Of a DNA stretch of 64,000 bases, positions 9,153-59,067 are shown piece after piece. The stretch is taken from positions 1-64,000 of the forward strand of contig NZ_JAERQF010000019.1 of NCBI RefSeq assembly GCF_016734815.1, written 5' to 3'. A program made the position numbers and the translations under genes. Below the pieces are notes generated by a model that saw only the letters and a list, made by a program, of their open reading frames with translations, searched no databases and was not told the origin of the DNA. Positions within the stretch are counted from its first letter, which is position 1. Every line of letters begins with the position of its first letter. This stretch comes from Hymenobacter rubidus. Lineage in GTDB: Bacteria; Bacteroidota; Bacteroidia; Cytophagales; Hymenobacteraceae.

Positions 9153-9863
9153 ATGTCTGCTACCCCTTCCCTGGTGCCCGATGACGACGCCCAACGGCTT
9201 TACAGCCTGCGGGCCTACGACTTACTGCCTGCGCTCACCGAACCTGTATTTGATGAGTTTGTGGCCCTGACGGCCCGCATCTTCAGCCTGCCCATCTCGT
9301 TGATTTCGGTTGTCGAGGAAGCCGACGTGTACTACCCCGCCAACCACGGCATGCCGGGCAATAACCAGCAGCCCCGCGCCGATGCGCTGTGCTCCACCGC
9401 CATTTCGCAGGCCCACGCCGTCGTCTACCACGACCTGGCCCTCGAAGACGAGTCGCATATTCCCCCGGAAGCACTGCGCGAGGCCGAATCCAACGGGCTG
9501 CGCTTCTACGCCGGGGCCTTGCTGCGCCTGCCCAACCAGCAGCCCCTGGGCACCTTGTGCATCATCGACCGCCAGCCCCGCGACTTCACCCCCGATGAGC
9601 AGCACATCCTGGAACTGCTGGCGGCCCTGGTCAGTCAAACCGTCGTGGTTCGGCACCTCTGCCGAACCAACCCCGATACCGGCGAGCACCAATGGGCACG
9701 CCTGAGCGCGGAGCTTCAGGAAGAAGTGCAGGCCCTGAATGCTCTGGTCCGCTACCTCTTTGCGCGCCGCGGCACCCAGGTCCCGGTCCCGGCAGAATTT
9801 CTCAGCCAGGTCGAAAGCCGTATTCACGACCTGCAGGACCTGCTCAATCGGTACCATCCCTAG
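9153..9863 (+). CDS. GAF-domain sensor-like protein
   Basis: A 236-residue cytoplasmic protein made almost entirely of one GAF domain (about residues 15-165) with the family's landmarks: FDEFVALTARIFSLPISLIS, then ALCSTAISQ, LRFYAGALLRL and LGTLCIIDRQPR followed by LLAALVSQTV. The C-terminal 65 residues are predicted helical and may dimerise. No kinase, cyclase or DNA-binding domain is attached. Stand-alone GAF proteins of this type occur often in Cytophagales and are thought to bind small molecules or act in signalling, but the ligand cannot be read here. In-frame ATGs also exist at 9093 and 9126; the one at 9153 begins the conserved part and avoids a leader that looks like untranslated sequence. 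A strong hairpin follows the gene. Confidence 0.8.
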   Translation: MSATPSLVPDDDAQRLYSLRAYDLLPALTEPVFDEFVALTARIFSLPISLISVVEEADVYYPANHGMPGNNQQPRADALCSTAISQAHAVVYHDLALEDESHIPPEALREAESNGLRFYAGALLRLPNQQPLGTLCIIDRQPRDFTPDEQHILELLAALVSQTVVVRHLCRTNPDTGEHQWARLSAELQEEVQALNALVRYLFARRGTQVPVPAEFLSQVESRIHDLQDLLNRYHP

Positions 9864-56039: not shown

Positions 56040-56087
56040 TTTTGGTTAACTCAAACAGCTTCTCAGTTATACGCTCTTTCCCACAGC

Positions 56088-56188
56088 TGTCATCCTGAGC
56101 GGAGCGAAGGACCTTCTCACCGCTGAACCATTGGCAGTGATTCAGTTGATACAAGCGTGAGAAGGTCCTTCGCAAGCTCAGGATGACA
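56088..56188. repeat. REP-like palindrome, family A
   Basis: Arms tgtcatcctgagcggagcga and cttcgcaagctcaggatgaca's core; subtype with aaggaccttctcac. Lies 69 bases beyond the dnaX stop. Confidence 0.85.
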
Positions 56189-56256: not shown

Positions 56257-58383
56257 TTAAAACTCTGCCTCCAACCCTAAACGTTGCTTGGCCTCGCGCA
56301 AGGCCGGAAACCGCTCGGCTAGGTACTCAAATTTATCGGTAGAGGTGTAGAGCTTTTTGGCCGTGGGCGCAGCCGCGTTCACTACGGGTTGCACGTTGAG
56401 GCGCGGGTTGCCGGTGCGGCGGCGCAGCTCGGCCAGGAATTCCACGCGCATTTCGTTGAACTGGTCGACCTGGATGGGGTTGTCCACGGCCAGCTCGATG
56501 TGGTGTTCTTCGTTGGCCGTCACGGGCCGGTTCAGCACCCAGAATTCGCTCATGCGGTCCTGGGCCCGGCGCTCTTCGGCCAGTTCCTGCCACACGCGCT
56601 GCAGCACGGCAGGGTCGGTGGGGGCCACCGGGCCGCTGGCGGCCGCCGGCTCGGCCGAAGCAGCGGCCGATGGGCCAGTGGCTGCACGGGCCCCCATGTT
56701 CTTGAGGCTGGGCAGCTTGCTGGCCAAGCTGGGAATCTTGGCAAAAGCGGCTTGCGGCGTTGGACGCGGCGCCGGCTCAATGCCCTCAAAGCTCGGCACG
56801 CCGATTTCGACGTGCGGCAGCGTGTCGCGCATCTGGTGCCGCTCGGTGATGGCGGCGTTCGGGTCGGCTTCAATGCTGGGCGTGTCGTGCAGCTCCTCCA
56901 CGCCGTTTTCGACGGGTAATGGGTCGGGGCCGTCGGCCGGGGCCGGGCCGGTGGCTACGGGTGCACCGGCCGGCATGGGCAGCGGCGCGGATGCGACGGC
57001 CGGGCGCGGTGCGGCCGTGTAGGCCGCGGCCGGCGACTCGGTGGCGTAAGCAGCCGGAGCGGCATAAGAAACTGATGAAACCGCAGCGGCAGCTGGGACG
57101 CTAGCAGATGGAGAGGCTACAGGCGCAGGCTGGGCGTGGCCGTTGGTGCTTCCACCGTAGATGCCATCACTGGTGCTGCCGCTGCTGCTTGGCGCAGCAG
57201 TTGCTGGCGTTTCACCGTCGCTTAGGCTGCTAGTTTTTTTTTTTGCCTCGCCGTTGGTGGCGGGGCTTAGCTCACGCACGAACTGCACGGCGCCGTTCAG
57301 GTAGGCCAGCTTCATCAGCGCCAATTCGACATGGAGGCGCTGGTTTTTGGCTTGCTTGAACTCGCGGTCACATTGGCTGATGAGGTTGAGCGCCGAGAGC
57401 AGGAAGGCCAGCGGCGCGGCCTGGGCCTGCTGCACGTACTTCAGCCGGATGCCGTCGGACACTTCCAGCAGCTGCACGGTCACGGCGTCTTTGCACACGA
57501 GCAGGCCGCGCAGGTGTTCGGCGGTGCCCACCACGAAGTTGTGGAGGTCGAAGCCATTCTGCATCACTTCATCGAGCAGGAGCAGCGCGGCCGAGAGGTT
57601 TTCGGTGAGCAGGCTGTCGACTAAGCGGAAGTAGTAGTCGTAGTCGAGGATGTGCAGGTTTTGCACCACCTCTTTGTAAGTGAGGTTGTTGCCGCCGAAG
57701 GTCACCATCTGGTCAAACATCGACAGGGCGTCGCGTAGGCCGCCGTCGGCCTTCTGGGCCAGCAGGTGAAGGGCGTCGTCTTCTGCCGTGATGCCTTCCT
57801 GGGTGGCCACATAGCGCAGGTGCCCGCGCATGTCCTCCACCTTGATGCGGCTGAAATCGAAAATCTGGCAGCGCGACAGGATGGTGGGAATAATCTTGTG
57901 GCGCTCGGTGGTGGCGAGGATGAAAATAGCGTAGCTTGGCGGCTCCTCCAGCGTCTTCAGAAACGCGTTGAAGGCCGCATTCGAGAGCATGTGCACCTCG
58001 TCAATAATGTAGATTTTGTACTTGCCGGCCTGCGGGGCGTAGCGCACCTGCTCCACCAGCGAGCGGATGTCTTCGACCGAGTTATTCGAGGCCGCATCCA
58101 GTTCGTGCACGTTGAAGGAGGCATTTTCCTGGAACGCCACGCAGGAGGCGCAGGTACCGCAAGCCTCGGTTTCGGCCGTGAGGTTGGTGCAGTTGATGGT
58201 TTTGGCCAGGATGCGGGCGCAGGTGGTTTTGCCCACCCCGCGCGGGCCGCAAAACAGGAACGCCTGGGCCAAGTGGTGGCTCTGAATAGCGTTTTGCAGC
58301 GTGGTGGTGACGTGCTGCTGCCCCACCACGCTGCGAAACGTGGAAGGACGGTACTTGCGGGCCGAAACGACGAAATTATCCAT
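56257..58383 (-). CDS. dnaX: DNA polymerase III subunit tau/gamma
   Basis: The clamp-loader ATPase and organiser of the replisome, 708 aa (tau). Walker A FCGPRGVGKTT at residues 44-54, a zinc-binding Cys group (CTNL to CGTCASC, about 64-80), Walker B YIIDEVHMLS, the sensor motif TTERHKIIPTILSRCQ, and domain III to about 365. After it comes a run of eleven A in codons 380-384 (Ala-Lys-Lys-Lys-Thr). One extra A gives a TAG after Asn384; one missing A gives a TAA after residue 386. Slippage would thus make a gamma-like 384-386 aa form. The rest is a Pro/Ala-rich linker (to about 590) and a C-terminal domain (LQRVWQELAEERRAQDRMSE) that in tau binds polymerase alpha and helicase. Confidence 0.96.
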   Translation of the reverse strand: MDNFVVSARKYRPSTFRSVVGQQHVTTTLQNAIQSHHLAQAFLFCGPRGVGKTTCARILAKTINCTNLTAETEACGTCASCVAFQENASFNVHELDAASNNSVEDIRSLVEQVRYAPQAGKYKIYIIDEVHMLSNAAFNAFLKTLEEPPSYAIFILATTERHKIIPTILSRCQIFDFSRIKVEDMRGHLRYVATQEGITAEDDALHLLAQKADGGLRDALSMFDQMVTFGGNNLTYKEVVQNLHILDYDYYFRLVDSLLTENLSAALLLLDEVMQNGFDLHNFVVGTAEHLRGLLVCKDAVTVQLLEVSDGIRLKYVQQAQAAPLAFLLSALNLISQCDREFKQAKNQRLHVELALMKLAYLNGAVQFVRELSPATNGEAKKKTSSLSDGETPATAAPSSSGSTSDGIYGGSTNGHAQPAPVASPSASVPAAAAVSSVSYAAPAAYATESPAAAYTAAPRPAVASAPLPMPAGAPVATGPAPADGPDPLPVENGVEELHDTPSIEADPNAAITERHQMRDTLPHVEIGVPSFEGIEPAPRPTPQAAFAKIPSLASKLPSLKNMGARAATGPSAAASAEPAAASGPVAPTDPAVLQRVWQELAEERRAQDRMSEFWVLNRPVTANEEHHIELAVDNPIQVDQFNEMRVEFLAELRRRTGNPRLNVQPVVNAAAPTAKKLYTSTDKFEYLAERFPALREAKQRLGLEAEF
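57234..57244 (-). promoter_or_regulatory. Slippery A11 run in dnaX (recoding or transcriptional slippage site)
   Basis: Eleven consecutive T on the plus strand, A on the coding strand. In-frame reading is gcA AAA AAA AAA Act; with one extra A the next codons are AAc tag, and with one A fewer cta gca gcc taa. Confidence 0.65.
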
Positions 58384-58403: not shown

Positions 58404-58443
58404 CCCAGAAACGGGCGGCTTTGGAAGCGGTTTGCCCCTCATC

Positions 58444-58583
58444 TGTCATCCTGAGCGCAGCGAAGGACCTTATCACGCTGGCACAGTTAGAAGTAGAAAA
58501 TCAGCCTGCTTTTCGCATTAAACAAGAGTGCCGTTCAGCATCGTTCATCCGTGAGAAGGTCCTTCGCTGCGCTCAGGATGACA
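58444..58583. repeat. REP-like palindrome, family A, with long loop
   Basis: Arms tgtcatcctgagcgcagcga and tcgctgcgctcaggatgaca, with an unusually long 80-base centre. Confidence 0.88.
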
Positions 58584-58612
58584 GGCGTGAAAAGGAAACC
58601 TTCCCTCTTGCC

Positions 58613-58693: not shown

Positions 58694-59064
58694 GGGGATG
58701 ACCGGAATTGACAGCTTGCGCAAATTGCGGGTAAGCGTGCCAGGAGTTGATGGAAGCTCTCCTGTCAAAAAATCTATCAACAATCAACTGGCGACTATTC
58801 GTACGCCATGGCTGCCTAGTTCAGAATTAGGTAATTGCCATCGTTCCGCCCGGGTAAGTTTCTACACCTGGGAGTTCGGAGCGTCGTAAGTAGAAAATAG
58901 CCTTCGGGGAGCTGTGACCCGGGGGCGAAACCCAACTGCAGCTAAGGGAAGCTCAAGGGCCTGACTGACGCCTGGGCTTCTTCGAAAATTCAAGTCTGGA
59001 TACGCACGTAGAAAGCACGTTGATTTCCTTGTCTGGACCAGGGTTCGAATCCCTGCATCTCCAC
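58694..59064 (+). ncRNA. ssrA: Transfer-messenger RNA (tmRNA)
   Basis: Rescues ribosomes stalled on broken mRNA and tags the peptide for proteolysis. The 5' end ggggatgaccggaattgaca and the 3' end cagggttcgaatccctgcat plus ctcca form the tRNA-like domain: acceptor ggggatg pairs with catctcc, and the T arm carries ggttcgaatcc. The tag frame at 58790-58819 reads Gly-Asp-Tyr-Ser-Tyr-Ala-Met-Ala-Ala then TAG (GDYSYAMAA), close to known Cytophaga tags ending SYAMAA. Length is 371 nt; CCA is not encoded. Pseudoknot regions were not checked base by base. Confidence 0.93.
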
Positions 59065-59067
59065 TTT

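Follow-up and report, generated by a model that had tools for sequence, protein, structure and literature searches.

The dnaX gene of Hymenobacter rubidus is open from end to end for tau, and the question raised by this locus is whether it also specifies a shorter gamma product and, if so, by what means. The gene lies in the 64,000-nucleotide stretch of contig NZ_JAERQF010000019.1 analyzed here (hereafter, the window), and matches NCBIfam NF011531 with 790.9 bits (cut-off 685). The Pfam match to domain III ends at residue 363, and just downstream is a run of eleven A (A11) in the coding strand, which reads AAC GGC GAG GCA AAA AAA AAA ACT AGC AGC CTA AGC. The first-pass annotation had reported this run, and its place after domain III in dnaX was confirmed, although the span given (57228-57250) was slightly wider than the run itself. 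It had also held that both alternative frames stop soon after the run, and computed edits bore this out. Adding one A gave a protein of 384 amino acids (aa) ending in AKKKN at TAG, and removing one A gave 386 aa ending in AKKKLAA at TAA (387 aa with two more A, 383 aa with two fewer). The coordinates are collected in Table 1, together with those of a neighboring transfer-messenger RNA (tmRNA) gene, for which the tag peptide given by ARAGORN (AAKGSSRA) looks doubtful.

Table 1 Features of the dnaX locus in the window, and in-frame UAG elements of dnaX in other loci (locus:position).
Feature	Position	Strand	Basis
dnaX, full frame = tau, 708 aa	56257..58383	minus	DNA polymerase III gamma/tau, Pfam and NCBIfam
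A11 run, putatively slippery, codons 380-384	57234..57244	minus	sequence; A10 after GCT or GCG in most relatives
AACGGCGAGGC, adjoins the run on its 5' side, holds SD-like GAGG	57245..57255	minus	near-invariant, 117 genus rows with run
TAG, would be reached with one extra A or a -1 ribosomal shift, predicted gamma 384 aa	57230..57232	minus	
TAA, would be reached with one A fewer, predicted gamma 386 aa	57222..57224	minus	
Domains I-III, residues 1-363, common to tau and predicted gamma	57295..58383	minus	Pfam PF13177, PF22608, PF12169
Tau-only linker and C-terminal region, absent from predicted gamma	56260..57229	minus	
tmRNA gene beside dnaX start	58694-59066	plus	Rfam 110.9 bits
Repeated inverted elements CTGTCATCCTGAGC...GAAGGACCTT, both sides of dnaX	56075-56131, 58443-58477, 58540-58596		
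In-frame UAG elements (candidate readthrough)	L093:4102, L100:4099, L081:2788; further UAG rows among L233-L306, L311, L312		

A total of 120 Hymenobacter genomes were searched and 118 dnaX genes were read past domain III; G095 and G099, with a best E value of about 1e-8 and no intact dnaX found, were left out. The run was in place in 117 of the 118 genes (A8, n = 1; A9, n = 3; A10, n = 105; A11, n = 8), and had at least nine A in 116 of these. In the 118th gene (L027) an A10 lies some 140 nt downstream of the usual place, and both other frames again contain stops (the shifted frames read AAC TAG and CTA GCT ACC TAA); the stops sit with the displaced run, and therefore run and stops have moved together. 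The refuting condition named by the first-pass annotation, loss of the run in close relatives, was thus not borne out. In all 109 standard genes of the genus the frame entered with one extra A stopped at codon index 5-6, and that entered with one A fewer at codon index 6-13. Eight genes were reversed, having the stop in frame 0 and needing a shift for tau. Over the approximately 100 nt read, three of them opened with one more A (L143, L144, and L178) and five with one fewer (L023, L029, L179, L190, and L198). Some reversed genes may be homopolymer errors in the assemblies; L143 and L144, from separate assemblies, have an identical A9.

Most of the genus encodes A-K-K-K at the run, and the A11 of the window corresponds to the usual A10 plus a GCT to GCA change that leaves the residue unchanged. 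The ratio of AAA to AAG for lysine in four Hymenobacter genes was 12:0 in the runs versus 24:60 elsewhere. On the 5' side of the run, GGCGAGG was near-invariant in the genus (column counts, 117 rows). As a separate observation, the DnaX match was split near residue 65-70 in about half of the genus (many rows from G062 on in the genome search), a pattern that an insertion of some 25-35 aa would give, with the frames open; we take these residues to be the zinc-site region.

The first-pass annotation had argued that a chance A11 without a function is unlikely. A11 occurs once in the 5,487,430-base genome, whose two A10 windows are the same run, and there is no other A or T run of ten or more in these 5.49 Mb besides that in dnaX. 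For A or T runs of at least ten, 5.49 Mb would be expected to hold 0.65 under independent bases or 11 under a first-order model (dinucleotide composition taken from the window only); for runs of at least eleven the values are 0.13 or 3.0, respectively. A single run by itself is not astronomically rare, and rarity alone proves little. The argument from rarity was thus weak, and function is upheld through conservation: chance is excluded because the run is conserved in relatives, and an assembly artefact as the origin of A11 is ruled out on the same ground. The A10 pattern was matched only once in 28 of the 120 genus genomes; 27 of them carry A10 in dnaX, which is therefore their sole match, and the 28th is G099. 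Phase variation at the DNA level was considered as well, and rejected: run lengths vary among species, yet on/off switching of tau is unlikely because tau is expected to be essential.

Across the phylum, we profiled the best 80 of at least 594 Bacteroidota loci, three of them from Hymenobacter (hereafter, the phylum set, to which all phylum counts below refer), from -40 to +130 nt relative to the end of the domain III match. The contigs of two loci (L075 and L092) end short of the end of tau. A run of at least eight A was found in 65 of the 80 loci, in all three codon phases (A9, n = 10; A10, n = 49; A11, n = 4; A12, n = 1; A13, n = 1), with 47 genes standard and 18 reversed, i.e., with gamma in frame 0. 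The frame entered with one extra A was closed within ten codons in 47 of the 47 standard genes and that entered with one A fewer in 43, against background rates of 0.52 and 0.50, respectively, at 9,640 other linker codons (binomial 6e-14 and 2e-9, both overstated as the sequences are related). Among the reversed genes, tau needed one extra A in 17 of 18, the other (L086) needing one fewer, and the frame used for neither product was closed within ten codons in 17 of 18 (exception, L091). Lysine codons within the runs were 170 AAA and 6 AAG, and elsewhere 1816 AAA and 814 AAG.

The remaining 15 loci of the phylum set had no run in the searched window. Two of them have one further out (L044, A10 at +262; L062, A9 at +511), three (L081, L093, and L100) carry a UAG element instead, and two (L078 and L083) are cut by the contig end. 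In L077 (3001-4149) a TAA closes the dnaX frame after 383 aa, and tau lies in another frame, with no A-run; this may be an error in a metagenome-assembled genome or another shift site. For at least seven run-less loci (L061, L068, L071, L079, L101, L103, and L106) the tau frame is open and no other device was seen. In a search of 395 genomes, one genus (g14) had dnaX frames of only 362-378 aa in 23 of its 23 genomes; judged from frame lengths alone, run sequences aside, tau probably needs a shift throughout that genus, as with a fixed reversed form.

Given the conserved run and the stops in both other frames, the earlier claim that a pure open-frame annotation misses a gamma of 384-386 aa is strongly supported. 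We consider the A-run to be very probably a selected recoding site giving gamma, with domains I-III, beside tau, and it is highly likely that the window gene makes two products at all. From the run, its uniqueness and conservation, the stops, and the AAA bias, we infer the existence of gamma, its amount, and a slip in transcription as its source. RNA polymerase would slip on the run, giving a part of the mRNA with extra or missing A's. Where the run is read faithfully, or altered by multiples of three, the ribosome would make tau of 708 aa; in either wrong frame it would meet a stop within a few codons and release a gamma of 383-387 aa, which would consist of the clamp-loader core (domains I-III) without the tau-only C-terminus. 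Transcriptional slippage is probably the main cause at the A-run. The first-pass annotation had likewise invoked slippage; its two-product output is strongly supported, and transcription over the ribosome stands as the better reading of how this output arises.

The ribosome could bring about much the same outcome. In E. coli, gamma is made from dnaX by -1 ribosomal frameshifting at A_AAA_AAG with a 3' stem-loop, and the window gene could work likewise, with ribosomes slipping back in the run with upstream SD-like help and stopping at TAG after 384 aa on an mRNA of uniform length. A ribosomal stimulator is hinted at by SD-like 4-mers: in the phylum set, 23 of the 65 loci contain one in the 16 nt before the run, versus rates of 0.10-0.13 elsewhere, with a peak 1-9 nt from it; the GAGG of the window ends one base before the run (A11 counted whole), within the GGCGAGG that the genus keeps near-invariant. 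In the phylum set, folding of the 60 nt preceding the run was slightly stronger than that of shuffled sequence (mean z -0.88; z below -2 in 13 of 65). The direction of such a shift is also the one needed in 17 of the 18 reversed phylum genes, and a single tRNA-Lys, with anticodon UUU, is among the 42 tRNA genes found in the genome. Against this, most genes also close the frame that lies out of reach of a -1 shift (43 of the 47 standard and 17 of the 18 reversed ones in the phylum set), and five of the eight reversed genus genes, as well as L086, need the opposite direction, i.e., one A fewer (or two more in the genus genes), which a -1 shift cannot supply. Most genes keep 9-11 A although A6G suffices in E. 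coli, and the run of the window is followed by C (AAA ACT), so that it contains no A_AAA_AAG heptamer. A further point against is that the anti-SD in ribosomes of Bacteroidota is described as masked. A 3' stimulatory stem-loop was rejected, as 3' folds were generally no better than shuffles (phylum set, mean z -0.50 over 65 loci, 7 below -2; genus, mean z -0.24 over 40 rows, 3 below -2), and that of the window gene was unremarkable (z -1.4 and -0.5). The closed third frames, the long pure runs, the preference for AAA over AAG, and the shifts in both directions therefore favor a change in run length over a -1 ribosomal shift, which we regard as unlikely, if still a serious candidate.

Stops in both frames would be accounted for as well if ribosomes slid on the poly(A), alone or mixed with transcript slippage, losing the frame on iterated AAA and meeting a stop in either one. 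In a cell-free E. coli system, as described in excerpts of PMC4363877, three lysines encoded from A11 led to a robust truncated product; the same excerpts describe A9 and A10 as yielding little of it, but A10 is usual here (105 of 117 in the genus), and we hold sliding to be improbable, more so than the -1 shift. Least probable of all, to the point of being very remote, is the absence of any recoding, the stretch being retained for its lysines in the protein, or the run being due to chance or assembly. The A-K-K-K encoded by most of the genus would fit a protein motif; the runs, however, use AAA almost alone, and their phases, hence the residues, vary across the phylum, which rules out a lysine motif kept for the protein. 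A gene without recoding is also at odds with the 18 of 65 phylum-set genes with a run in which tau needs a shift, with the short frames in all 23 genomes of g14, and with the movement of run and stops as a unit in L027. Slippage in transcription stays our preferred reading of the A-run, with a share for the ribosome conceivable.

Transcriptional slippage in dnaX of Thermus thermophilus was reportedly described by Larsen in 2000. The Thermus run is an A9 that slips, with stops in both frames and with gamma and tau in equal amounts (as given in excerpts of PMC1088944 and PMC5009743). The window gene resembles it in having tau in a single open frame, a sense-strand run of at least nine A after the clamp-loader core, close stops in the other two frames, and a truncated product as its (predicted) gamma. 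It differs in the length of the run (A11 here and A10 in most relatives) and in its position, soon after domain III and about 54% into the gene, whereas that of Thermus is seven-eighths in. Slippage in Thermus is known as such, whereas that in the window gene is deduced from sequence. The excerpts of PMC5009743 suggest two lysine tRNAs as possibly relevant to slippage in Thermus; unlike Thermus and like E. coli, the genome of the window has one tRNA-Lys. According to the same excerpts, whether gamma matters, and how bacteria make it, is disputed. Further likenesses to E. coli are that the frame would be left on A-rich lysine codons to give gamma and that an SD-like element, a candidate stimulator, lies upstream; the long pure A-run, the stops in both other frames, and the lack of a conserved 3' stem-loop set the window gene apart. 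The GeneTack analysis of 2013 (PMC3711429) lists 17 two-ORF dnaX genes, 12 of them with poly-A (nine A10, three A7-A9). These share the A-run with the window gene and their organization with the reversed genes found here (e.g., L023 and L051), but with gamma in frame 0 and tau by a shift they are the opposite way round from the window gene. The window dnaX is of the Thermus kind, and the principle is already known from Thermus and from the A10 genes in PMC3711429. In the openly licensed literature we found no paper on the A-run across Bacteroidota dnaX, on UAG readthrough in dnaX, or on a UAG with tau in +1.

The three run-less loci with a UAG element (L081, L093, and L100) have one in-frame UAG at codon 367-368, after which the same frame is open to the end of tau. 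We searched 149 genomes of the Bacteroidales family of L100 with tau, reading UAG as Q. The best match contained exactly one TAG and no other stop in 71 of the 149, and a few genomes (G579, G597, and G523) had TAA in place of TAG. The motif UAGAUWGCNAG was present at the TAG site in 71 of 71, though the search had asked for TAG only, and also in G613 and G630, just beyond their tau match. A covariance model (R1) gave one match of at least 30 bits in 73 of the 149 genomes, always at dnaX; the next matches, 21.9 and 19.8 bits, were at the dnaX of G654 and G606, which have the +1-type variant described below, and the background was below 20 bits. Among 295 genomes drawn from the order, only the genome of L100 itself exceeded 25 bits.

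In the resulting 74 sequences (73 from the family, and L081), which are related, the Ile of the element is always encoded by ATT or ATA, not by ATC, and 73 have AGA or AGG as the third codon. A stem of at least 3 bp is possible in all 74, starting 9-10 nt after the UAG in 70, versus a mean of 25 and a maximum of 35 of 74 in shuffled windows. After the hairpin comes a CAY, in one reading frame in 41 sequences and in another in 33, which suggests a constraint on RNA rather than protein. The consensus fold of the UAG alignment, with four rows lacking the UAG included, had no pairs, and column-wise covariation in 32 of the 74 sequences was not beyond controls (the 63.3% of paired cells exceeded all 500 shuffles, yet a slide by -1 gave 71.6%). 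The hairpin count per sequence was used as evidence because hairpins of two loop sizes are misaligned in the alignment. We consider UAGAUWGCNAG and its hairpin a candidate programmed readthrough element, in which the UAG would end gamma and readthrough would give tau.

A dedicated amber suppressor tRNA was rejected for the genome of L100 (G120), with no CUA anticodon among the 41 tRNA genes found. Reassignment of UAG as a sense codon in the genomes with the element is still conceivable: dnaX itself ends in TAA or TGA in L081, L093, and L100, and open frames that end in TAG, of putative gene status, exist near it. Another reading is reinitiation after the UAG, which would give a separate C-terminal protein.

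No A9 was seen in the stretches read of the UAG dnaX genes, which for 46 of 74 span no more than about 600 nt around the UAG. The UAG motif is lacking in 18 family members that were read: 13 of these contain at least A9, one is cut by the contig end, and four carry AGGCYTAGCTAGRYCGC (in L307, L308, and L310, and displaced in L309). In each of these four, the UAG terminates the dnaX frame (R-P/L-S-stop), and a +1 frame that starts with G-L-A-R stays open for the rest of the stretch read; from its sequence, this UAG with tau in +1 is a possible +1 shift device. Four family members without UAG (L248, L251, L252, and L258) have their A10 deeper in the linker, by about 280-350 nt, showing that the run can move. 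It is likely that selection in Bacteroidota acts on the two products of dnaX as such, and that the devices after domain III are interchangeable: the A-run, in either orientation; in some members of a single Bacteroidales family, a UAG element that would be read through for tau; and, in a few others of this family, a UAG after AGGCYUAGC with tau in +1. Other candidate devices turn up at that position in genes that lack the run, which argues well for a role of the window's A-run in making gamma.

These patterns bear on how dnaX is annotated, as gamma is missed in standard genes, and in reversed or UAG genes tau may be taken for a pseudogene or for two genes. If true, the UAG element would add a programmed stop-codon readthrough element not described before, and this in an essential bacterial gene; efficient programmed readthrough in bacteria could then be studied in a compact system. 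A run that is kept throughout a genus and in most of the phylum set, reversed or moved in some lineages, and replaced by UAG devices in one family points to lasting selection on the gamma/tau pair in much of Bacteroidota.
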